Shown here piece by piece: positions 21,880 to 49,644 of a stretch of DNA of 64,000 nt (position 1 is the stretch's first letter; every line of letters starts with the position of its first letter). The position numbers and the translations under genes were made by a program. The DNA is from Oscillatoria salina IIICB1 (lineage in GTDB: Bacteria; Cyanobacteriota; Cyanobacteriia; Cyanobacteriales; SIO1D9). Under the pieces are notes generated by a model that ran no database searches, was not told the DNA's origin, and was given only the letters and a program-made list of their open reading frames with translations. The DNA is taken from assembly GCF_020144665.1 (NCBI RefSeq), contig NZ_JAAHBQ010000005.1, forward strand, positions 1 through 64,000, given 5' to 3'.

Positions 21880-22545
21880 TTATCCTGGGCTTAATTGTCG
21901 AAGAAAAGTTGCGTGTTCTGTTGTCGCCAAACCAATTTCCAAAACTCGTCGAACTTCGACTAAATCGCCATTTAAAAGTGCCTCTACCGACAACCATAAA
22001 CCTGGAAAAACCTGAGAGCGAATTATGCCTTCTGGATCGGGTGATAAAGTAAGATATTCTCCAGCCTGCCATTGAAACCAATCAAAACGGCGATCTGCTA
22101 CTTGCCAAACTAAATACTCACAACAGCGATTGCGACGATAGACTTGTAACTTATCTCGCAAATCATAAGAAGCGCTACTGGTAGCAATTTCGACAATTAA
22201 TTCTGGCGCACCTTCAAGATAGCCATCTTCACTAATAGTTGATTGTCCCTCTCGTGCAATTCTTAATAAAGCATCCGGTTGCGGTTCATTGTCAAAATCG
22301 AGGCGCACAGTCGTATTATCAGCTACTTGAACTCCCGGCGTAGCCGTCCAGTAAGCCCCCAGCCATGCCATAATTTGAGCATGAGGTGTACCGTGAGCGA
22401 TCCGAACCGGAGAACCCATATAAACTATTCCTTCAATCAGTTCAGCTTTTTTTAAGTGAGGCATAGCCTGATAGCGACGTTCAAATTCTTGACGAGTGAG
22501 GCGATCGCCATTTTCTAAGGGTAAAATTTTCTCTGTAGTTCGCAT
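21880..22545 (-). CDS. Uma2 family endonuclease-like protein, copy A of a tandem pair
   Basis: This is a 221-residue Uma2 (DUF820) protein. The core motif is APELIVEIATSSASYDLRDK followed by QVYRRNRCCEYLVWQVADR, corresponding to the PD-(D/E)XK acidic strand and a helix Lys. The N-terminal block PLENGDRLTRQEFERRYQAM begins near residue 9. I start it at ATG 22545, which has GAGGAG just upstream and gives the same length as copy B. In copy A the upstream ATG seen in copy B is replaced, so only a GTG at 22569 would allow an extension. Residues around 75-95 (AHGTPHAQIMAWLGAYWTAT) differ sharply from copy B. Confidence 0.82.
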   Translation of the reverse strand: MRTTEKILPLENGDRLTRQEFERRYQAMPHLKKAELIEGIVYMGSPVRIAHGTPHAQIMAWLGAYWTATPGVQVADNTTVRLDFDNEPQPDALLRIAREGQSTISEDGYLEGAPELIVEIATSSASYDLRDKLQVYRRNRCCEYLVWQVADRRFDWFQWQAGEYLTLSPDPEGIIRSQVFPGLWLSVEALLNGDLVEVRRVLEIGLATTEHATFLRQLSPG

Positions 22546-22588
22546 CTGGGCTTGTCTCTCCTCTTGCACTATGTTCCTTGTTTGGCGA

Positions 22589-23254
22589 TTATCCTGGGCT
22601 TAATTGTCGAAGAAAAGTTGCGTGTTCTGTTGTCGCCAAACCAATTTCCAAAACTCGTCGAACTTCGACTAAATCGCCATTTAAAAGTGCCTCTACCGAC
22701 AACCATAAACCTGGAAAAACCTGAGAGCGAATTATGCCTTCTGGATCGGGTGATAAAGTAAGATATTCTCCAGCCTGCCATTGAAACCAATCAAAACGGC
22801 GATCTGCTACTTGCCAAACTAAATACTCACAACAGCGATTGCGACGATAGACTTGTAACTTATCTCGCAAATCATAAGAAGCGCTACTGGTAGCAATTTC
22901 GACAATTAATTCTGGCGCACCTTCAAGATAGCCATCCTCACTAATAGTTGATTGTCCCTCTCGTGCAATTCTTAATAAAGCATCCGGTTGCGGTTCATTG
23001 TCAAAATCGAGCCGCACAGTCGTATTATCAGCTACTTGAACTCCGGGCGTAGCTAGAGAATAATTAAATAACCAGCCCATAATGTGAGCGTGAGGATTGC
23101 CGTGAGTAATCCGAACCGGAGAACCCATATAAACTACTCCTTCAATCAGTTCAGCTTTTTTTAAGTGAGGCATAGCCTGATAGCGACGCTCAAATTCTTG
23201 ACGAGTGAGGCGATCGCCATTTTCTAAGGGTAAAATTTTCTCTGTGGTTCGCAT
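22589..23254 (-). CDS. Uma2 family endonuclease-like protein, copy B of a tandem pair
   Basis: This is the 221-residue twin of the preceding gene, identical except for a few residues and one patch near residues 75-95 (THGNPHAHIMGWLFNYSLAT). Catalytic-core motifs are the same. ATG 23254 is preceded by GAGGAG. An in-frame ATG 11 codons further upstream (23287) is possible but its extension lies within the start region of the divergent Uma2 gene. The equal lengths of both copies argue for the shorter start. Both copies look intact, so both could be expressed. Confidence 0.82.
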   Translation of the reverse strand: MRTTEKILPLENGDRLTRQEFERRYQAMPHLKKAELIEGVVYMGSPVRITHGNPHAHIMGWLFNYSLATPGVQVADNTTVRLDFDNEPQPDALLRIAREGQSTISEDGYLEGAPELIVEIATSSASYDLRDKLQVYRRNRCCEYLVWQVADRRFDWFQWQAGEYLTLSPDPEGIIRSQVFPGLWLSVEALLNGDLVEVRRVLEIGLATTEHATFLRQLSPG

Positions 23255-23372
23255 CTGGGCTTGTCTCTCCTCTTGCACTATGTTCATTTTAGGCTTAGGA
23301 AAACAGCATCGAGAATCGGTTAGTTTAGGAGTAGAAATTATTGAGCAAACCCTCAGTTTCCCAAGAGGTCAA

Positions 23373-35815: not shown

Positions 35816-38800
35816 TCAATGCTCGCTAGGAACCAATTTTCTTTGCAATTTCTCAGCCAGAACATAAAACACTGGAACGATAAATAAACTCAAAAAAGTC
35901 GAAACAATCATCCCACCAACAACCGCAGTTCCTAAAGATACCCGACTAGCTGCACCAGCCCCCGATGCTAATACCAAAGGTAGCAAACCGAAAATAGTTG
36001 AAAAAGCGGTCATCAAAATCGGACGAAAGCGGACTTGTCCCGCTTGAATTGCGGCTTTAGTTGCTGACATTCCCTCATCGCGTCTTTGGTTAGCAAACTC
36101 AACAATTAAAATTGAATTTTTCGTAACTAAACCAATCAACATAATCAAGCCAATTTGACTGTAAACATTCAAATTTAAGCCACCTAATAATAAAGCACCA
36201 AAGGCTCCTAACAAAGATAGGGGAACCGCTAAAAGAATCACAATAGGATCGAGATAACTTTCAAATTGTGCCGCTAATACTAGGAAAATAAACGCTAAAG
36301 CTAAACCAAAGACAAATAAAATAGATTGACCTGCTTCTCTAAATTCTAACGACTGACCAGACAAGGTTGTCGAAATACTATCAGGTAAAGTTTCCTCAGC
36401 TAAATTTTCTAAAGCTGTGAGCGCATCTCCCAAACTATAACCAGGTGCGGGACTACCTTCAATTGTTGCCGAACGAGAGCGGCTAAAATGATTAATTTGC
36501 GGCGGTGTTGTCGTACGTTCAACTGTTACTATTGAACTCAAAGGAATAACATCACCGTTGCTAGCTCGAACATAAAATTCGCCGATACTATCAGGTTCGT
36601 TGCGATATCTATCTTCAGCTTGAACTACTACTTCAAAACGACGATTTCCGCGATTAAAATTAGTAATTTCTTGTCCGCCTAAAAGAATTTGTAAAGTACG
36701 AGCTACATCGCGAACAGAAACGCCTAAATTACCCGCTAAAGCCCGATTTACTTCCACAGTTAATTCAGGTTTATTTAACTGAAAATTGGAATTAACATTC
36801 ACTAATTCTGGTAACTGTCGAGCTTGATTTGCTAATCTTCCTGAAGCTTCTGCTAATTCTGATAAATCGTTTCCTTGGAGGACAAATTGTACGGGTTGAC
36901 TGAAACTAGCACCAGGTAGAGAAGAAGGATTAATTGGTAACACTAAAGCATCACTAATTTGTGAAAAACGACCGAATAAACTATTAACAATTGTTTGTTG
37001 AGACTCATTTTCTGCGGTACGTTCTGACCAAGGTTTTAACTTAACAAAAGCAATTCCTTCACTGACGGGATTGCCGCCACTACCACTAAAACCACCAATA
37101 GTAAAATAACTGTTTACTTCGGGAACTTCGCTATAAATTTCCTCAACTTGTTGCATTACTTCGTCGGTGTAGTTAATGCTAACTCCTTCTGGTCCTTGGA
37201 CAATGGTAAATATTGAGCCGCGATCTTCCGTAGGTAGAAATTCTTGGGGAATTTGGTTGTATAAAAAATAGGTGATTACTAGAGAAGCTACAAATAAAAC
37301 AATCGCTACAAATTTAAGCTTCATTAACTGTTTTAAAGACCATTGATAAATAGCATTTAAACGATTTAAACCCCATTCTAAACTATTAAAAAACCAACCA
37401 CCTAGCTTACTATTTCGTCGCAATAATCGGGCTGATAAAGGCGGCGCGAGAGTGAGGGCGACAAAAGAAGAAAGTACCACTGCACCAGCGAGAGTAAGAG
37501 CAAATTCAGTAAATAATTTTCCCGTAGTACCGCCAGAAAATCCCACTGGTGCAAAGACAGCAATTAAAACAATTGTTGTGGCGATGACAGCAAAAACAAC
37601 TTCGGCTACACCCACAGAAGCAGCGCGAAAAGGGGGGTAGTTTTCTTGTTCGATATAACGAACGATATTTTCGAGAACAACAATCGTATCGTCAACGACT
37701 AAACCTGTAGCTAAAGTAAGCGCAAATAAAGTCAATGTATTCACCGAAAAATCCAGAAAATACATAATCGCAAATGCGCCAGTCAAAGCAATCGGAATAG
37801 TAATTGCGGGAATAATTGTCGATCGCCAGTCGTGTAAAAAGAGGAAAATCACCAAAACGACGAGTGCGATCGCCAAAAACAACGACTTCCACACTTCCTC
37901 AATGGCGATCGCGACAAACTCGGAATCGTCGGAAGCTACTTGATATTGCATCCCCGCAGGAAAATTTTCTGACAATTCCTGCATTTTTTCTTTCACACCA
38001 TTAGCAACTGCTAAAGTATTAGCATCGCTGAGTTTAACTACTCCTAAACCAACGGCAGCTTGACCTTTAAACCGGACAAAGCTACGATAATTTTCGGCTC
38101 CAATTTCTGCTCTACCTACGTCTTCTAAGCGAGTTTGGGAACCATCCGGATTGCTTCTAATTACTAAATCTTGATATTCTTCTGGTGCTTGTAATCTTCC
38201 CAAAGTTTGCACCGCATATTCGTTAAACTCTCCCTCAACAATACCGCTAGGAATCTGAACATTTTGGGAACGAAGCGCCTCTTCGACATCTAACACTGTT
38301 AAGTTTCTCGCTGCAAGTTGACGAGCATCGAGCCAAATTCGCATTGCATAACGACGTTCCCCACCAATAATTACACTACTAACACCAGAAACCGATTCCA
38401 AAGCATCGACAATTACGCGATCGGCGTAGTCACTTAATTGCAAAGTTGTTAAATTTTCGCCATACAAAGCAAACCAAATTATCGGTGAAGAAGAACCCGA
38501 TTCTTTACTAACCACTGGCGCTTCGACATTATCTGGTAACTCTCCTCTAACTCGTCCAACCCTATCTCTCACGTCTTGTGCGGCGGTATCGAGGTCGCGA
38601 TCTAGTTCAAATTGAACGGTTATTGTGCTGGTAGATTGACTGCTTTGCGAACTAAGAGTTTTAATGCCGTCAACGCCGTTAATTTCTGCTTCTAAGATTT
38701 CGGTTACTTCTGTTTCTACTACTTCTGGATTTGCCCCAGGATACACGCTGGTAACTGTAACTACTGGTGGATCGATACTCGGATATTCTTGTACGGGCAG

Positions 38801-38890
38801 TCGTGTATAAGCAACTATTCCCAACAGAACAATTAGTAGGGAGCAAACTGAAGCAAAGACAGGTCTTTTTATAAAGAAGTCAGTAAACAT
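35816..38890 (-). CDS. RND efflux pump permease, AcrB/HAE1-like
   Basis: This 1024-residue pump has the canonical HAE1 start MFTDFFIKRPVFASVCSLLI. Helix 4 carries the paired aspartates of the AcrB relay in LVVDDTIVVLENIVRY near residue 407. All twelve helices and both porter domains appear complete, with the second-half helix 10 block LIMLIGLVTKNSILIVEF. It probably exports hydrophobic drugs, bile salt-like amphiphiles or lipids. It is encoded immediately downstream (232 bp) of its adaptor, on the minus strand, and ends facing the other RND pump. No TolC-like gene is present. Confidence 0.94.
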   Translation of the reverse strand: MFTDFFIKRPVFASVCSLLIVLLGIVAYTRLPVQEYPSIDPPVVTVTSVYPGANPEVVETEVTEILEAEINGVDGIKTLSSQSSQSTSTITVQFELDRDLDTAAQDVRDRVGRVRGELPDNVEAPVVSKESGSSSPIIWFALYGENLTTLQLSDYADRVIVDALESVSGVSSVIIGGERRYAMRIWLDARQLAARNLTVLDVEEALRSQNVQIPSGIVEGEFNEYAVQTLGRLQAPEEYQDLVIRSNPDGSQTRLEDVGRAEIGAENYRSFVRFKGQAAVGLGVVKLSDANTLAVANGVKEKMQELSENFPAGMQYQVASDDSEFVAIAIEEVWKSLFLAIALVVLVIFLFLHDWRSTIIPAITIPIALTGAFAIMYFLDFSVNTLTLFALTLATGLVVDDTIVVLENIVRYIEQENYPPFRAASVGVAEVVFAVIATTIVLIAVFAPVGFSGGTTGKLFTEFALTLAGAVVLSSFVALTLAPPLSARLLRRNSKLGGWFFNSLEWGLNRLNAIYQWSLKQLMKLKFVAIVLFVASLVITYFLYNQIPQEFLPTEDRGSIFTIVQGPEGVSINYTDEVMQQVEEIYSEVPEVNSYFTIGGFSGSGGNPVSEGIAFVKLKPWSERTAENESQQTIVNSLFGRFSQISDALVLPINPSSLPGASFSQPVQFVLQGNDLSELAEASGRLANQARQLPELVNVNSNFQLNKPELTVEVNRALAGNLGVSVRDVARTLQILLGGQEITNFNRGNRRFEVVVQAEDRYRNEPDSIGEFYVRASNGDVIPLSSIVTVERTTTPPQINHFSRSRSATIEGSPAPGYSLGDALTALENLAEETLPDSISTTLSGQSLEFREAGQSILFVFGLALAFIFLVLAAQFESYLDPIVILLAVPLSLLGAFGALLLGGLNLNVYSQIGLIMLIGLVTKNSILIVEFANQRRDEGMSATKAAIQAGQVRFRPILMTAFSTIFGLLPLVLASGAGAASRVSLGTAVVGGMIVSTFLSLFIVPVFYVLAEKLQRKLVPSEH

Positions 38891-39122: not shown

Positions 39123-40487
39123 CTAATCTCCTCCTAAAGGCGAAATTGGCGCACCATCGAACAATTTTTGCATCCCAGAGATAACAATTTGAGTTCCTGG
39201 TTGGAGTCCTTCAGTAACTTCTGTAGTTGTTTCTCGTTCTAAACCGAGTTGAATTGGTTGTTTTTGAGCAATTAACTGTCCTTCTCGATCTACAGGAAGG
39301 TAAACAAACCTTTCTTCGCCTTCGTAAACAATAGCCGTTGTCGGGATTACGACTGCATTTGGACGTTCTTCCCAAATAATTCGCGATCGCACAAATTGTC
39401 CGTCTCGTAATTCTCCATTAGGGTTGGGAAAGGTAGCTTTCGCGGCGATCGCTTGTGACTCGGTATCTACTTGGGGCGCAATAAAACTAATTCTACCCGT
39501 ACCCAGATAATTACCTCGAGAATCTTCAGCCTCAACTGTTAATCCTAAACGTAAGTCCGCAGTACGTTCGATGGGAATTGCCAGGCGTAAATCTAAATCT
39601 TGGTTGGCGGTAATACTGGTGAGATCGTCGCCACTTTGGAGATATTCGCCTTCTTTGACGGGAATGTCCCCAATTACGCCCGCAAACGGTGCCACAATCG
39701 TATTATCTTGCAATTGTTCCTGGAGCAGTTCAACATCTGCTTGACGTTGTTCTAAGGTAGCTTGGGCTTGATTAAATCTTGCTTGAGCGGCGGCAATACG
39801 TTGGTTGGTAGCATTAAGAGCAGCCCTAGCCGCTTCTAAATCTCTGGTTACGCGATCTAGTTCTTGTCTTGCTAAGGCTCCTTGTCCCACTAAACCAGAA
39901 ATTCGCCGATATTGCTCTTGTTGAAGATTAACATCGGCTTGGGCGCTACTGCGTTCGGCGATTAAAGCTTGTAATTCAGCCCTAGCGGTTTCTTGAGCAG
40001 CTTGAGCAGCGTTAACGCTGGATCTCGCTCTTTCTATCTCTGTTTGGGTTTGTTCCGCCGAAATTCTCGCGATCGCGCTTCCGGCTGCTACTTGTTGTCC
40101 TTCGCGAACGTAAATTTCCTCGATTCTTCCTTCGGTTTCGCTTTCAATACTTGAGGTTCTCTCAGCTTCGAGATTCCCCACAAATTCGGAAGTTTCTTCT
40201 ACTGTGGTCGTTTCCGCTACGCCTAACTCCACAGGTGTACCCCTAGGTTGGCTTTGCTCGGTGGTCGTTTCCGAACTAGAATTATATTCTTGCCACCACC
40301 ACCAACCACCAAATCCAAGTCCACCCAAAAGCGCGATCGCTCCCCAAATTTTCCACCAATTACGGCTTTTTTGGCGATGTTTGACTAAAGTTTTCAGTTC
40401 TTCCTCTTGCTCTAAAGAACTATCTTTGTCTACCTCCGGCTGCTTTTCTGGTGCTTCAATTGTTTTTTTACTTGACTGAGGACTCAT
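39123..40487 (-). CDS. RND efflux periplasmic adaptor (MFP family)
   Basis: This 454-residue adaptor has an unusually long cytoplasmic N-terminus (about 42 residues, Glu/Lys/Gln-rich). A single membrane helix (WKIWGAIALLGGLGFGGWWW) follows near residues 45-65. The MFP core then begins with VGNLEAERTSSIESETEGRI, continues through an Ala/Gln/Glu coiled coil (about 165-260) and ends with a beta-barrel. The membrane-helix anchor contrasts with the lipoprotein anchor of the other adaptor. It is the first gene of the operon with the HAE1 pump downstream. Confidence 0.9.
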   Translation of the reverse strand: MSPQSSKKTIEAPEKQPEVDKDSSLEQEEELKTLVKHRQKSRNWWKIWGAIALLGGLGFGGWWWWQEYNSSSETTTEQSQPRGTPVELGVAETTTVEETSEFVGNLEAERTSSIESETEGRIEEIYVREGQQVAAGSAIARISAEQTQTEIERARSSVNAAQAAQETARAELQALIAERSSAQADVNLQQEQYRRISGLVGQGALARQELDRVTRDLEAARAALNATNQRIAAAQARFNQAQATLEQRQADVELLQEQLQDNTIVAPFAGVIGDIPVKEGEYLQSGDDLTSITANQDLDLRLAIPIERTADLRLGLTVEAEDSRGNYLGTGRISFIAPQVDTESQAIAAKATFPNPNGELRDGQFVRSRIIWEERPNAVVIPTTAIVYEGEERFVYLPVDREGQLIAQKQPIQLGLERETTTEVTEGLQPGTQIVISGMQKLFDGAPISPLGGD

Positions 40488-41016
40488 TCTCTCTACTTAG
40501 CTTTTACTTACGCGAGATGCAAACGAGATAAGTTAATTTCTCATCCTGAAAATAGGCAGTGCAGCTACTTGTTACCTGAATATTTACAATTATTCATCTT
40601 TTGGCAGGTATTTTACATCCTTCCAAAGGTTCATTGACTCACGCGTCAGGTTAGGCGCAAAAAAAGCGTCAAATGGCACTAGACGCGAGACAAGTTTCTT
40701 GCCCAAATGAAGCCCAAAGTCTCTTGGTAGGCGGCAAATACGTCTCCATTTTCGGGAGCCAAGCAGAAAAATGAGAAGATATTCAAATAACTGTGCTTGA
40801 CAAGAGAAGAGTTTTGTACTTGAGGTTGGTGCTAGAGGTTGCTGGGACAAACCCTTAATTCAAGTTGTGCCAAAAGGAAGTATTATAGGATACTGAAAAG
40901 TTGAGGATTACTCAGAATGTAGTGCAGTTGGTAACTATGAGTATTAGTCTAAAACCGGAACACGAACAATTTATTAAGTCTCAGGCGGCGAGAAAGTAAT
41001 AATTTGGAGATATCTG
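40488..41016. other. 529-bp gap with no intact gene
   Basis: An 86-codon frame on the minus strand (40590-40850) is open but has no recognisable domain, and the sequence around it looks non-coding; I do not call it. The only gene-like item is the truncated antitoxin remnant at 40937-40999. No promoter could be placed with confidence. Confidence 0.6.
40937..40999 (+). pseudogene. Truncated ParD-like antitoxin remnant
   Basis: ATG 40937 opens MSISLKPEHEQFIKSQ and stops at TAA after 20 codons. This is the N-terminus of the ParD/CopG-like antitoxin family, whose members continue for about 60 more residues. The rest, and any ParE toxin, are missing, and the next gene begins 17 bp later. It therefore looks like the surviving stub of a toxin-antitoxin operon at the edge of the PLP/ligase cassette. 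Confidence 0.6.
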
Positions 41017-42255
41017 ATGTCAACAGCAATCTATCTTAATACCGCTAGATTGGGACTTATGTTACCTAGGGTACAGAGATTATACGGTGATTTTCTCAAG
41101 TTTACAGGTGACGAAGTCAGCTCACTCTATTTTGATAAATTTATCTATTTTGGATTTGAATCTTTACCAAATAAAATACAAAAAATATATCCATTTTTGT
41201 CAGACTGGAAAGGAATTTCAAATTTCAAAAAATCTTTAAAAAGTATACTATCAGTCCCTTTATATGCAACTACAGATGCAAAAATATTATTAGCTAATCG
41301 TTCCTGTCAATTAATGAAACTAGGAGCAAACCTTCTCTTTCTTAAATCCCCAAAAGTCTTAACAACCGATTTAGAATGGCCTCAATATAAAGCAATTCTG
41401 AAACAACAAAAAGAATTTCTAGGAGGCAAAATAAAAACAGTTGACCTCCGTTCATTTATTTTAGAAGATAATTGTACTCGGGAGGATCTAATTTCAAGAG
41501 TTATTTCTGCTTATGACAAATATGATTGTGACGGCTTATTCATTAGTCATATTACCTTTGAAGGATTTCGACTTCCAGTTGAAGACATAGTAAAAATTAT
41601 TACTAGTCAAAAGAAAAAACCATCATTTGTTGTTGTTGATGGCTCGCAATCTTTTTCTCATAGCCCATTAAATATTTTAGAATATAGTGATTTTTACATA
41701 ACAGGTTGTCATAAATGGCTGAGAGCGTGGCATCCAATGGGATTAGCTTTTTGTTCTCAATCCAATTCGGTAGAATTTATAACAACTATTTATCGTCAGA
41801 TGCTGGAAAAGGGCAAATTAGATGACCCTCTTTTAAATTTTACAAACCAACTTGAATTAGGATCTAATTCTGCATTTACAGAAACTGTAAACTTGAATTC
41901 ATTATTTTCAGCAGCAGCAGCAGTAGCAAATATCCTTGAGGGTAATCAATCAATGGAACAAAAATTTAAGAAATTAGTTGAGCAAGTAGAAAAGCTAGAA
42001 GCTGTTTCAATAAATTATCACTGGACACCTTTAGTTAAAAACGATTCCCTCAAATCAGGAATTGGTTTAATCAAAAGCACGAAACCATCAATTAGAGCTT
42101 TGACGCCAAAACAACTTCGAGCTAGTTTTCAGTCACATGGGATTGATTTAACAGCTTATGGAAAAGGTATTATTCGCATCTCGGCACCTATTAAAGAATT
42201 AGATATAAATGATTATAAACTGTTTCATAAAGCTTTAGATTTTTGTCATTCATAA
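41017..42255 (+). CDS. Class V aminotransferase-fold PLP-dependent enzyme
   Basis: This 412-residue enzyme is of the cysteine desulfurase/isopenicillin epimerase-like class V family. The PLP aspartate block is VVDGSQSFSHSPLNI near residue 208. The PLP-binding lysine follows in YITGCHKWLRAWHPMGLAF near 232. The C-terminal small domain ends with GKGIIRISAP. It starts 17 bp after the truncated antitoxin and is followed by a GCS2-type ligase gene 8 bp later, clearly one operon. The two genes are AT-rich, with no HIP1 site in the 2.6 kb. Its reaction (C-S lyase, epimerase, desulfurase or aminotransferase) is not determinable from sequence alone. Confidence 0.82.
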   Translation: MSTAIYLNTARLGLMLPRVQRLYGDFLKFTGDEVSSLYFDKFIYFGFESLPNKIQKIYPFLSDWKGISNFKKSLKSILSVPLYATTDAKILLANRSCQLMKLGANLLFLKSPKVLTTDLEWPQYKAILKQQKEFLGGKIKTVDLRSFILEDNCTREDLISRVISAYDKYDCDGLFISHITFEGFRLPVEDIVKIITSQKKKPSFVVVDGSQSFSHSPLNILEYSDFYITGCHKWLRAWHPMGLAFCSQSNSVEFITTIYRQMLEKGKLDDPLLNFTNQLELGSNSAFTETVNLNSLFSAAAAVANILEGNQSMEQKFKKLVEQVEKLEAVSINYHWTPLVKNDSLKSGIGLIKSTKPSIRALTPKQLRASFQSHGIDLTAYGKGIIRISAPIKELDINDYKLFHKALDFCHS

Positions 42256-42263
42256 GCAGAAAT

Positions 42264-43622
42264 ATGTTAAATAGAAAAATTGGTTTAGAATTTGAATTTC
42301 CAGCAATTAATCTAAGTGATGGTAAAATGATCGACCGCTCCCAAATCAAAAAAGTTTGGGACGAATTAGGAAAAAACTTTGATTATCAAACTTATTACGA
42401 TCCTGCAACTAAGCAGCCTGTAGGAGTTTTATACAAAGATGAAGATGGCAGGATCGTGATTGTCGATACTGACGTCAGTGTTGGTTTAGTTGAGTTTGGC
42501 TTTAATCCCTTTTACACTTTACATGATTGTTATGAAAATATGGTAAAAATACTCAAAAACTTTTTACCATATTTTCATAATAATGGTATTGGGTTACTAT
42601 CTACTACTTTTCATCCCAAAACTCCCAATTTTTATCCCGATCTCAAAACTGAAAAAGTCTGGTATAGAGTGTTACTTAAACATCTAAATCATTATCTGGG
42701 ATCTAATTACGCAGCTCATCAGGTTTGTATCGATGTAAGCTATGAAGAACTTATGCCATTGACTAACTCTCTTCTAGCTCTTTCTAGTATATTTATTGCT
42801 TTGTTTGCTAATAGTTCAGTCGGTGAAAACAAAATTTTTCAAAATCATGATGAAAGAGAATATCGTTGGGATTTTTGGCCTAGCAATCATCCGAACCGCC
42901 TGCAATTACCAAGTCGCAAATTTGCCAGTTTCACAGAATATTTAAAGTATAATTTTGAGGTTCCTTTCGTCGCTGTAAAGCGACCAAATAGTTTCTGTAT
43001 TGTTGAAGATGAAGTTAGTAATTTTGAGTATTTAGTCAAAGATAATTGGAAGGCTTTTGATGTGATCGACACTGAATACAAATTTCTTGAACCTACAATT
43101 AATGATGTTAATGAAATGAATCAGTATATTTTCCTGAAAACCAGGATAAAATACTTTTTTAAAAAGCAATCTTCATTATCAGATTTATTAAAAAACTATA
43201 AGGAGAATACATTTGACGATTTTGCTAAGGTAAATCTTGAAAAATTGTATTTAGAAAATAGAAGTATAGATGCTCAAAATTGGGATGAAATTATGGCTCC
43301 TTCTGCATTTATCCTCGGTCTAATTGAAAACCTGCCTCAGACAAAAAAAGTCGTCGATAGTCAACCTTGGGAATATTGGTTGGAACTGAGAAAAAGAACG
43401 ATAAAAAGTAGTCTAAAAGTAGAAGAAGCTGTTTTAATTAGTCAAGAATTATTAGAAATTTCTAAGCAAGGATTGGTAAAAAGAAATATGGGAGAAGAAG
43501 TATATCTAGATTCCATTGCTAGGAACTTAAAAGACCAAAAATCTCCAGCAATGAAAGCTATTGAAGAATATCAAGATCGCGGCATCGATGGATATATAAA
43601 AAATAGACTAATTAACTTATAA
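42264..43622 (+). CDS. GCS2-type glutamate-cysteine ligase-like carboxylate-amine ligase
   Basis: This 452-residue protein matches the GCS2 fold (EgtA, plant GCL and YbdK-type ligases). The N-terminal strand is IGLEFEF, then TDVSVGLVEFGFNP near residue 76 in the metal/carboxylate region. The blocks AHQVCIDVSYEE near 160, FIALFANSSVGENK near 184 and a following tyrosine-rich W/Y block also match. Such enzymes join a carboxylate, often glutamate, to an amine using ATP. I start at ATG 42264, 8 bp after the PLP gene. An in-frame TTG at 42243 overlaps it. The coupling of a ligase and a PLP enzyme suggests a small pathway, perhaps to a thiol or amide natural product. Confidence 0.78.
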   Translation: MLNRKIGLEFEFPAINLSDGKMIDRSQIKKVWDELGKNFDYQTYYDPATKQPVGVLYKDEDGRIVIVDTDVSVGLVEFGFNPFYTLHDCYENMVKILKNFLPYFHNNGIGLLSTTFHPKTPNFYPDLKTEKVWYRVLLKHLNHYLGSNYAAHQVCIDVSYEELMPLTNSLLALSSIFIALFANSSVGENKIFQNHDEREYRWDFWPSNHPNRLQLPSRKFASFTEYLKYNFEVPFVAVKRPNSFCIVEDEVSNFEYLVKDNWKAFDVIDTEYKFLEPTINDVNEMNQYIFLKTRIKYFFKKQSSLSDLLKNYKENTFDDFAKVNLEKLYLENRSIDAQNWDEIMAPSAFILGLIENLPQTKKVVDSQPWEYWLELRKRTIKSSLKVEEAVLISQELLEISKQGLVKRNMGEEVYLDSIARNLKDQKSPAMKAIEEYQDRGIDGYIKNRLINL

Positions 43623-43673
43623 ATCGATTATTGGGACTTATAACAGCGATCGGACGCTGTTTACTGTTTACTG

Positions 43674-44264
43674 CTAGCTGGTATAAGTCACGCTACCTTC
43701 AAAACTTTCACCTCTAGTCTCTAAAAAAGAACGAGCCAGAAAAAAGCTACAAATAGATTTAGCATCAATAGCTTCCCCTACTAAAATAGCTTCTAAAAAC
43801 TCTTGAGGAGATAGTAAAACCACCTCAATATCTTCATCATCATCTAAATTTAAAGGCTGCTGTAGCTTTTCTAAATCTTGAGCAAGAAAAGAGTAAATAT
43901 ATTCATCAGAATAACCTGGAGCGAGAGGAAATTTACCCAAGGAGATCCACTTCTTAGCACGATAGCCCGTTTCCTCTTCAATTTCCCGTTGAATCGTTTC
44001 TGCGGGATCTTCATTAACTTCAACAGTACCAGCCGGAAATTCCAAAAGTCGTCCTTTTAATGCAAAGCGATACTGACGCACTAAAACCAGTTTACCCTCT
44101 GGTGTAACAGGCACAGCCAAAGCACCGCCAGGGTGACGAATACATTCCCAGTCACCCTCAGCCCCATTCGGTAAGCGCAAACGATGGACATCAAAACTAA
44201 ACTTCCGACCTTGGTAGAATAAGCGTTGTTGAATAATTTCTGGAGGTTCTTGACCGAGTACCAT
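43674..44264 (-). CDS. Nudix hydrolase, ADP-ribose pyrophosphatase-like
   Basis: This 196-residue Nudix enzyme has a complete Nudix box: PAGTVEVNEDPAETIQREIE followed by EETGY, near residues 75-98. The Glu residues that bind Mg are all present. The preceding region PVTPEGKLVLVRQYRFALKG is typical of ADP-ribose or NDP-sugar hydrolases, which clear reactive ADP-ribose. It sits 6 bp from the folK gene on the same strand, folK being upstream, and is probably co-transcribed with it. A role beyond ADP-ribose hydrolysis, for example in dihydroneopterin triphosphate breakdown, is possible given the folate neighbour, but the sequence does not decide. Confidence 0.88.
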   Translation of the reverse strand: MVLGQEPPEIIQQRLFYQGRKFSFDVHRLRLPNGAEGDWECIRHPGGALAVPVTPEGKLVLVRQYRFALKGRLLEFPAGTVEVNEDPAETIQREIEEETGYRAKKWISLGKFPLAPGYSDEYIYSFLAQDLEKLQQPLNLDDDEDIEVVLLSPQEFLEAILVGEAIDAKSICSFFLARSFLETRGESFEGSVTYTS

Positions 44265-44270
44265 AGTAAG

Positions 44271-44759
44271 TTATAAACGACGGACACCAGAACAGTCTAC
44301 CGCTTCTGTGAGTTCAGCGATCGCGCAATTTGTTACTGGATCGATCCAATCGGGAGCAATTTCTGCTAAAGGTACTAACACGAAACCTCTTTCTCTCATC
44401 CGTGGGTGAGGAATTTGCAACTCTGGTGTTTCCAGAATCAAATCTTCGTATAAGATCAGATCGAGGTCGAGCGATCGCGCCCCCCAACGTTCCCGACGCA
44501 CTCTACCAAAATTTTTTTCCACTTTCAGTAACACCTGTAACAATTCTTGGGGACTTAGCTGCACCTCGAGCAACACACAGCCATTAATATAATCTGGTTG
44601 TGGCGGTCCCACTGGTGCAGTTTGATACCAACTGGAAACTGATTTTAAAGCAATACCAGGAGTTTGCGCCAACATCTCCACAGCTTCTCTGACAATTGTA
44701 CGAGACTCACCTAAATTACTACCCAGCGCCACAGCAACTTTTTTCCCCTCTTTTATCAT
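44271..44759 (-). CDS. folK: 2-amino-4-hydroxy-6-hydroxymethyldihydropteridine diphosphokinase
   Basis: HPPK transfers pyrophosphate from ATP to 6-hydroxymethyl-dihydropterin in folate synthesis. The 162-residue protein has the family start VAVALGSNLGES and the P-loop-like region WYQTAPVGPPQPDYINGCV near 48. The signature RRERWGARSLDLDLILYEDL near 95 and the closing HPRMRERGFVLVPLAEIAP block near 120 are intact. I start at ATG 44759, with GAGG positioned upstream. An ATG ten codons further upstream gives an unconserved extension. The Nudix gene follows 6 bp downstream on the same strand. Confidence 0.95.
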   Translation of the reverse strand: MIKEGKKVAVALGSNLGESRTIVREAVEMLAQTPGIALKSVSSWYQTAPVGPPQPDYINGCVLLEVQLSPQELLQVLLKVEKNFGRVRRERWGARSLDLDLILYEDLILETPELQIPHPRMRERGFVLVPLAEIAPDWIDPVTNCAIAELTEAVDCSGVRRL

Positions 44760-44902
44760 TCCATTCCTCACGACAGATGTATTTTGCAACTAACTTAAGT
44801 TATCAGAAAGTTGTCCATGATGAATAATACCAATTCTCAAAAAATATAGCGGTTTTTTTTGAGAAATAAAATTACAACGAACTAATAACAAATAAAAACA
44901 CA

Positions 44903-46851: not shown

Positions 46852-49644
46852 TTACTTAATTCCTTGTCTCACCGGAATTTTAATCCAAAACTCCGTACCT
46901 TTACCTAGCTGAGAAACACATTCTAATGAACCACTATGTTTTTCCACTACAATTTGATAACTAATAGACAAACCTAAACCAGTTCCTTTCCCCACGGGTT
47001 TAGTGGTAAAAAATGGATTAAATAATCGCTCTTTAACTGCTTTTGTCATTCCCGGACCATTATCCGCAATTAAAATTACTACTTTTTGAGAATCAACTAA
47101 CTCAGTTTTAATCGTTATCTGACTGGGATTTGCATTTATCTCTTCCTGAGAACGTTGACTATTGTAATCGTCTAAAGCATCGATAGCATTAGTTAAAATA
47201 TTCAAAAAAACTTGATTTAACTGACCAGCATAACATTCAACAACTGGTAATTGACTATAATCTTTGATTACTTTTATTTCCGGGTGACTGGGCTTAGATT
47301 TGAGACGACTTTGAAGAATCAATAAACTATTATCAAGTCCTTCGTGAATATTAACTTCTTTCATTTCAGCTTCGTCAAGGCGAGAAAAATTACGCAATGA
47401 TAGTACAATTTTGCGAATACGATTGGTTCCAACTTTAATCGAGTCAATAATTTTGAGAAAATCTTCAACTAAAAATTCTAAGTCAATTTCTTCTATTAAA
47501 TTGGCAATCTCTGGATGTGGATTAGGATAATATTTTTGATAAAGTTTGACAAGTTTTAGTAAATCATTGGTGTAGTTTTCTGTATGAGTAAGATTGCCAT
47601 AAATAAAGTTAACTGGATTATTTATTTCGTGAGCTACACCCGCAACCAGTTGACCTAAACTAGACATTTTTTCTGCTTGGATTAACTGGTTTTGTGCTTG
47701 ACGAAAGTTTTGCAAAGCGTTTTCTGCTTGCTCTTTTGCTTGTAATAATTCCTCTTCTGCTTGTTTGCGATCGCTGATATCTGTAGAAATTCCACAAATA
47801 GCATAAACATTTCCGCTTGTATCATAAAAAGGAAATTTACTAGAGATATAAGTCTGGAAAGTATCATTAACTTTAACAGTTTCTTCCCATTGCATAGGAA
47901 TCCCTGTTTTGATAACTATCCGATCGTTTTCTCGTAATTTATTAGCAACTTCTTCTGGATGAATATCATAGTCATTTTTGCCTTTTATTTTCTCGTTAAT
48001 TAGGTCAAATAAATGCTCAAATTGGCGATTTATGAGTAAATAACGTCCCTCGATATCTTTAATATAAATTACTTCCGGAGAGTTGTCGAGGATAGCTTGT
48101 AGTCGCTCTTCACTTTCTCTTAATGCTTTTTCTGCTTCTTGTTGTTCGGTAATATCAATTCCGGTGCTAATAATATATTCAATAGTTCCTTCTTCATTAA
48201 GAAGTACCGTATCTGACCAAGCAATTAAACGTTGTTTACCATCCTTAGTTAACCAATAACTTTCATATTTTTTCGGAAAACTACTAACTTGTAAATCCCC
48301 CGATAAAAATTTTTCCGCTTCCACTGTTTCGGAAGACAAAAATAATTGCCAAAAGCATTTACCTTGAACTTCTTGAAAATTATATTTGGTTGTTTTTTCG
48401 CAAGCTTTATTGAAGCGAATAATCCGTCCTTGAGAATCTAAAACTACTACTAAAGCCCCGGCTATTTCTAACGTTGCTGCTGCAAAATTACGTTCTATTT
48501 CTACTTTATGAAATAGTTCCTGTACCTGCGCTGTCATTTGATTAAAGGTTGTTGCTAGAACACTCAATTCATAGGGACTGGTAATGTTGACTTGAGTATC
48601 AAAATTTCCTTCACTAATTTGCGTAGCCGCAGATGTAAAAAATTTGAAAGGTGAAACAATCCGTTGGGAGAGAATAAATCCCGCCGCGATCGCTGCTATA
48701 ATTACAGCAATTAGGGCTTCTACCGTTCTCTTCACCATACTGTGAATAGGAGCATAAGCTTCGGTGAGAGGTAGTTCAACAACTAAATTCCAACCTAAAC
48801 TAGGAATTGGTGCTGTTGCTCCTAATACTTTGACATCTTTTAATCCTCTATAAACATGAGGTTTTTGATAAGATTTATTAGATTTAAGATATCCTAATAA
48901 AGGATTTTGGGAAAGGTTTTGCCTTTGAAAATTATTTTGCGTGCTTCCTTTTTCAGCAATTAAAAAATTTTTTTCATCAACCACATAAACGTGACCTGTT
49001 TTACCTACTTCTGTTTGCGAGACAACAAACCAGAGAAAGCTAAGATTAATTTTAGCAAATAATACGCCATCGACTCGATCTTCGAGATTGCGGATTGGCA
49101 CTGCTAGGGTTATCATTGGTATACCAGTTGTGGGATTAATTTCCACTGGACTGATATATTCTTCTTGCTGTTTGAAGGTACGCGTAAATAAAGAAGAATC
49201 AGCAAGATTTTTGTATTTTACCTGTTCGGAGGGGGAAACTGCGACTACTGGATTACCTTTGCTATCTAAAATGCTTACGAATTCATAAGCATCGTTGTGA
49301 CGAATTAATCCTTCTAGTAAACTTTGCTGAATTTGTGGAGAATAGTTAGTTATTCCTCTAACTCTAGCTAGATAACTTAGTCTACCATGCAAGTCATCCA
49401 AATAATTGTTAATCTGGCTAGCAGTAATTTGGGAAAGCTCTTTTTGCAACTTTCGTGACTGTTGAAAATGATAGTTAAAGCTGAGATAAAGAAGTATTCC
49501 TCCGGTTGACAAAACACTTAAAATGCCCATAATAATAAGACTAAAACCTAGCTGATTGGCAATAGAAAAGAACCTATTCCAAAAGGTTATTTTCCTATTT
49601 CTAGAGTCAGCTAAAAGACGACTAGAGTCTCGATTTTTCATCAA
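46852..49644 (-). CDS. Membrane sensor histidine kinase with extracytoplasmic and PAS sensor domains
   Basis: This 930-residue sensor kinase has a transmembrane helix near residues 34-56. A dCache-like extracytoplasmic domain follows, with a conserved VYVVDEKNFLIAEKG strand near 222. A second helix sits near 305-325, then a HAMP domain (SPFKFFTSAATQISEGNFDT), and two PAS/PAC domains near 390-510 and 515-640. A coiled coil precedes HisKA with the phospho-acceptor in GVAHEINNPVNFIYG near 670. HATPase_c motifs (DNGPGMTKAVKERLFNPFF and GKGTGLGLS) are intact. There is no receiver domain, and no response regulator gene is adjacent. The signal is unknown. Confidence 0.92.
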   Translation of the reverse strand: MMKNRDSSRLLADSRNRKITFWNRFFSIANQLGFSLIIMGILSVLSTGGILLYLSFNYHFQQSRKLQKELSQITASQINNYLDDLHGRLSYLARVRGITNYSPQIQQSLLEGLIRHNDAYEFVSILDSKGNPVVAVSPSEQVKYKNLADSSLFTRTFKQQEEYISPVEINPTTGIPMITLAVPIRNLEDRVDGVLFAKINLSFLWFVVSQTEVGKTGHVYVVDEKNFLIAEKGSTQNNFQRQNLSQNPLLGYLKSNKSYQKPHVYRGLKDVKVLGATAPIPSLGWNLVVELPLTEAYAPIHSMVKRTVEALIAVIIAAIAAGFILSQRIVSPFKFFTSAATQISEGNFDTQVNITSPYELSVLATTFNQMTAQVQELFHKVEIERNFAAATLEIAGALVVVLDSQGRIIRFNKACEKTTKYNFQEVQGKCFWQLFLSSETVEAEKFLSGDLQVSSFPKKYESYWLTKDGKQRLIAWSDTVLLNEEGTIEYIISTGIDITEQQEAEKALRESEERLQAILDNSPEVIYIKDIEGRYLLINRQFEHLFDLINEKIKGKNDYDIHPEEVANKLRENDRIVIKTGIPMQWEETVKVNDTFQTYISSKFPFYDTSGNVYAICGISTDISDRKQAEEELLQAKEQAENALQNFRQAQNQLIQAEKMSSLGQLVAGVAHEINNPVNFIYGNLTHTENYTNDLLKLVKLYQKYYPNPHPEIANLIEEIDLEFLVEDFLKIIDSIKVGTNRIRKIVLSLRNFSRLDEAEMKEVNIHEGLDNSLLILQSRLKSKPSHPEIKVIKDYSQLPVVECYAGQLNQVFLNILTNAIDALDDYNSQRSQEEINANPSQITIKTELVDSQKVVILIADNGPGMTKAVKERLFNPFFTTKPVGKGTGLGLSISYQIVVEKHSGSLECVSQLGKGTEFWIKIPVRQGIK

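Follow-up and report, generated by a model that had tools for sequence, protein, structure and literature searches.

A class V PLP-dependent enzyme gene beside a GCS2-type ligase gene in Oscillatoria salina IIICB1: a possible two-gene unit producing a small metabolite from an amino acid

Two adjacent genes in a 64-kb stretch of the Oscillatoria salina IIICB1 genome, hereafter the window, encode a divergent class V PLP-dependent enzyme (gene 1) and an amide ligase of the GCS2 superfamily (gene 2). We give about even chances to the reading that the two genes together serve to make a small metabolite derived from an amino acid, in a pathway separate from those of glutathione and ergothioneine. 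In its favour are the adjacency of the genes, their intact motifs, the fold of the ligase, which resembles plant glutamate-cysteine ligase (GCL), and the tailoring enzymes found beside ligase relatives; against it, the sampled cyanobacteria yielded no second example of the pair. A literature search found no paper on this gene pair.

The gene pair and its products

Both open reading frames are intact and are separated by 8 bp from stop codon to ATG; the listed frame of gene 2 begins further upstream, with a TTG at 42243. The first-pass annotation described two tightly spaced genes with PLP-lysine and GCS2 motifs, and this description holds, key residues included. The pair and its surroundings are as follows.

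35816-38890, minus strand: AcrB-like gene of an RND efflux operon, assigned by eye
39123-40487, minus strand: HlyD-like gene of the RND efflux operon, assigned by eye
41006-41009, plus strand: GGAG ahead of gene 1, a possible ribosome-binding site read from the sequence
41017-42255, plus strand: gene 1, divergent class V (fold type I) PLP-dependent enzyme, 412 aa
42264-43622, plus strand: gene 2, GCS2/plant-type glutamate-cysteine ligase-like amide ligase, 452 aa from the ATG
43642-43661, plus strand: weak terminator-like stem-loop after the pair, from a consensus scan (1 found, 1.6 expected by chance)
43674-44789, minus strand: NUDIX/FolK pair on the other flank

The flanking genes (RND pump, NUDIX and FolK) are thus oriented opposite to the pair, and the two-gene unit itself encodes neither a transporter nor a regulator or tailoring enzyme. 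A very short open reading frame immediately 5' of gene 1 (40937-40999, MSISLKPEHEQFIKSQAARK) looks, judged by eye, like the beginning of a ParD-type antitoxin; it has no Pfam match and is possibly a remnant.

Gene 1 matches Pfam Aminotran_5 (PF00266) at 23 bits (E 4.5e-5; cut-off 21.5) and carries the PLP motifs DGSQS and GCHKW, with Lys233, which places it in the class V aminotransferase fold. In an alignment, the motif Asp, His, Lys and Trp are invariant across its relatives. The nearest of these are cyanobacterial class V proteins, presumably of the cystine C-S lyase (C-DES) type, with about 25-27% identity (23-30% over part of the protein for the best hits), and of the proteins with solved structures the C-S lyase Egt2 matches best by sequence (5.6e-6). 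Gene 1 shares the class V fold type I and similar DGxQ and HKW motifs with these C-S lyases, but at only about 25-27% identity and with Trp in place of His at the stacking position, where it reads LEWPQ and the relatives AEHPG. This replacement points to a substrate or reaction unlike that of the C-S lyase-type relatives, and both substrate and chemistry probably differ from theirs. The Arg of GIIRISAP aligns with the Arg of CIRACVHY in the relatives, a position expected to bind the substrate carboxylate; since this Arg and the PLP-binding residues are kept, gene 1 likely acts on an amino acid. From about residue 247 to residue 409 its translation lacks Cys, and we rejected an IscS/SufS-type cysteine desulfurase because the catalytic Cys of the C-terminal mobile loop is missing. 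A single-sequence structure model (pLDDT 36) was too poor for use.

Gene 2 matches Pfam GCS2 (PF04107) at 41.4 bits (E 1.5e-10; cut-off 21) and is a member of that superfamily, which comprises ATP-dependent carboxylate-amine ligases with varied partners (Iyer et al., PMC2588565). As a member, gene 2 would be expected to activate a carboxylate by phosphorylation, in most cases the gamma-carboxylate of glutamate, and then to couple an amine to it (PMC2588565). The GhExE Mg/ATP signature defined in the same paper appears in gene 2 as GLEFE at residues 7-11, with the G and both E invariant in relatives, and the C-terminal E331/R333 are present; the ATP/metal residues, whose loss would have counted against the proposal of the first-pass annotation, are therefore kept on alignment. 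In the second new amidoligase family of PMC2588565 the partner is a glutamine amidotransferase-like peptidase or a gamma-glutamyl cyclotransferase, whereas that of gene 2 is a PLP enzyme.

The best sequence and fold match of gene 2, over most of its length, is the plant-type glutamate-cysteine ligase (TIGR01436; PDB 2gwc, 9ufc). The TIGR01436 model gives E 7e-11 and 41.2 bits, far below its cut-off of 463.15, and a fold search with a medium-confidence structure model (pLDDT 61, pTM 0.58) returned plant GCL 2gwc first (E 2.8e-12). The E/R near the C-terminal motif is conserved in both, and gene 2 retains plant-GCL-like E, R, D and W positions (YLENRSIDAQNW versus YLEMRGADGGPW); identity is about 19%, however, and GADGGP is replaced by SIDAQN. 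Elsewhere in the same genome (contig C25) lies a separate, strong GCS2/GshA-like protein (206 bits), so gene 2 is probably dispensable for glutathione.

Distribution and neighbourhoods of ligase relatives

The pairing of gene 1 with gene 2 was not found in several hundred other sampled cyanobacterial genomes, and among these cyanobacteria the same pair is thus not seen in at least two unrelated genomes. The first-pass annotation had called the pairing unfamiliar as a stand-alone unit, which agrees with this outcome; it had also named failure to co-occur elsewhere as a result that would tell against its proposal, and on that point the sampled cyanobacteria go against it. Two overlapping samples of about 390 cyanobacterial genomes each held no ortholog of gene 1.

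Queried alone, the ligase found no relatives among 99 related genomes and one among 389 other genomes of the class. With a two-sequence profile, four further genomes of the order also gave relatives, of which two are full-length, one is interrupted and one is truncated; a broader profile applied to 320 genomes of the class added none. Distant relatives, at 20-24% identity, occur in about 1% of the searched same-order cyanobacteria: Microcystis aeruginosa LEGE 91341, Okeania, Kamptonema, Calothrix rhizosoleniae and a second genome of the genus Microcystis, where the copy is truncated. A scan of genome contigs with the ligase alone gave no match, and an alignment-based contig scan gave 11 loci, adding Plectonema radiosum, Calothrix sp. 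MO_167.B12 and, beyond cyanobacteria, Clostridia and a Micrarchaeon. The genome searches cover cyanobacterial samples, and those outside cyanobacteria are pattern scans, which are prone to miss divergent orthologs. In two Clostridia loci (L059 7932-11274, L062 3931-6593) the GCS2-like ligase gene lies directly 5' of a GshA-like ligase gene; in L059 the two are followed by a gene resembling a class II glutamine amidotransferase.

The cyanobacterial GCS2-like ligases (Microcystis, Okeania, Calothrix, Plectonema, Kamptonema) are collinear with gene 2, have 450-460 aa and share 42 invariant columns with it, but they are only 20-24% identical and have other partner genes; in the loci examined, no gene-1 homolog lies near them. 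In a tree, gene 2 branches outside or at the base of these ligases, with weak support. Several of the relatives look as though they lie in natural-product clusters. A putative small cluster in M. aeruginosa LEGE 91341 (L003 31-4995) comprises a methyltransferase, the GCS2-like ligase, an extra, canonical SerC and a Lyase_1/ADSL-like lyase. This SerC is a class V enzyme like gene 1, without detectable pairwise similarity to it. As the sole match above the TIGR01364 cut-off in those genomes, which hold one further weak class V match, it looks dedicated to the cluster. In the second Microcystis-genus genome (L049) the ligase copy seems truncated, with in-frame stops.

The Okeania ligase adjoins a TauD oxygenase and an EamA exporter, and that of Plectonema a radical SAM protein and a MATE exporter. 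Two Calothrix loci (L056 3970-9362, L052 8722-14299) share a GNAT-like protein, a C45/AAT acyltransferase, a WelO5-like 2OG oxygenase and the ligase. We do not regard the WelO5-like protein as a halogenase, as its HND motif suggests an ordinary HxD 2OG hydroxylase. The ligase of C. rhizosoleniae SC01 is apparently interrupted near its start. Given the 20-24% identity and the weakly resolved tree position, these contexts may not carry over to gene 2, and we treat function transfer from them as a lead rather than a test.

Proposed function and alternatives

For the substrates, the order of steps and the product, we infer the following scheme from the two enzyme families. An amino acid would bind to the PLP enzyme as an external aldimine and undergo transamination or a reaction of the beta/gamma elimination type. 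The ligase would then phosphorylate a carboxylate with ATP, the donor most likely being the gamma-carboxylate of glutamate, as in characterised relatives, and would couple the activated carboxylate with the amine that the product of the PLP enzyme carries. A gamma-glutamyl ligase is also part of the beta-ethynylserine pathway. More tentatively, the product could be an unusual amino acid in a so far undescribed conjugate of gamma-glutamyl type, and the pair could be one of a scattered set of cyanobacterial clusters that form amides without an NRPS and have a GCS2-type ligase in common.

The order of steps could also be reversed, with the ligase acting first and its conjugate, gamma-glutamyl or other, then serving as substrate of the PLP enzyme, which might for instance split a C-S bond to give a thiol or sulfenate, in a detoxification or sulfur-salvage pair. 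The presumed C-DES-type relatives of gene 1 and Egt2 act on sulfur amino acids, and gene 2 keeps its plant-GCL-like E, R, D and W positions, both of which suit this order; the Trp of LEWPQ in place of the relatives' His, at about 26% identity, does not, and we think it unlikely. Still less probable, in our judgement, is that the two genes are a remnant, or unrelated acquired genes with no joint function. Their pairing is unique in the sampled cyanobacteria, and the ParD-like frame upstream (40937-40999) is what a site of gene turnover might show, but full-length frames, intact motifs and 8-bp spacing would be unlikely in DNA that had long been neutral.

The first-pass annotation also compared the pair with EgtA and EgtE of ergothioneine synthesis, a likeness that the family models do not bear out. 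Gene 2 scores 10.4 bits against the EgtA model TIGR03444 (E 0.21; cut-off 370.8), and gene 1 has no match to the EgtE model TIGR04343 at E 1; across the genome that model matches six other class V loci and passes over gene 1. EgtB- and EgtD-type genes, which the annotation had reported absent, are indeed missing from the window, but the genome has copies on contig C51: an EgtD that passes its cut-off with 434.9 bits, and an EgtB-like protein that at 353 bits falls just short of its cut-off of 360. This shared contig and the Egt2 match of gene 1 would fit a pair that adds EgtA-like and EgtE-like steps to a pathway encoded elsewhere in the genome. On the model scores we reject an ergothioneine role, and we know of no requirement for EgtA in cyanobacterial ergothioneine synthesis; such a contribution is highly improbable. 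A second EgtD-like gene lies on contig C121 (L074 2538-9752), in a candidate biosynthetic cluster with an N-methyltryptophan oxidase-like amine oxidase, an FAD-linked oxidase, a flavin halogenase-like protein and a methyltransferase.

Should amide formation by the ligase of the two-gene unit prove to lie outside glutathione metabolism, this gene pair, like the relatives located in clusters, would point to compact biosynthetic loci, of a kind expected to escape tools that seek large NRPS/PKS or RiPP genes. The pair would then also offer a small system for testing substrate change in GCS2 ligases.

Base composition and origin

The AT-richness noted in the first-pass annotation is confirmed: at 31.9% GC, the pair is the lowest among same-length stretches scanned in the window. 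The next-lowest value elsewhere is 33.9%, at 47151, and a histidine-kinase-like gene (46852-49644) comes close to the pair at 34.5%. Codon use does differ between the pair and its neighbours (z of 6.3 and 4.5), but values of 5-17 are seen for ordinary genes in the window.

The annotation had further taken the lack of HIP1 sites as a sign of horizontal transfer. The pair indeed contains none of the 79 sites in the 64 kb, and the gap around it measures 3984 bp; when 79 sites were placed at random in 64 kb, however, a gap of at least this length arose in 41% of simulations, so we discount it as evidence of transfer. A 2606-base stretch fixed beforehand would lack HIP1 with a chance of 3.6%, but this one was chosen post hoc, and with that choice allowed for the absence is not significant (p about 0.4).

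Horizontal transfer of the pair is plausible. We rejected a defence or phage origin, as the pair has no PADLOC or PHROGs match and no viral contig match. A plasmid search gave no match either, and the DNA upstream of the pair was not found as a mobile-element repeat in its own genome, where it has one 50-base match only. Elsewhere in the window, two neighbouring minus-strand open reading frames at 21880-23287 share an identical N-terminal sequence (VQEERQAQMRTTEKILPLENGDRLTRQEFERRYQAMP) and are a tandem duplication, Uma2-like by eye.
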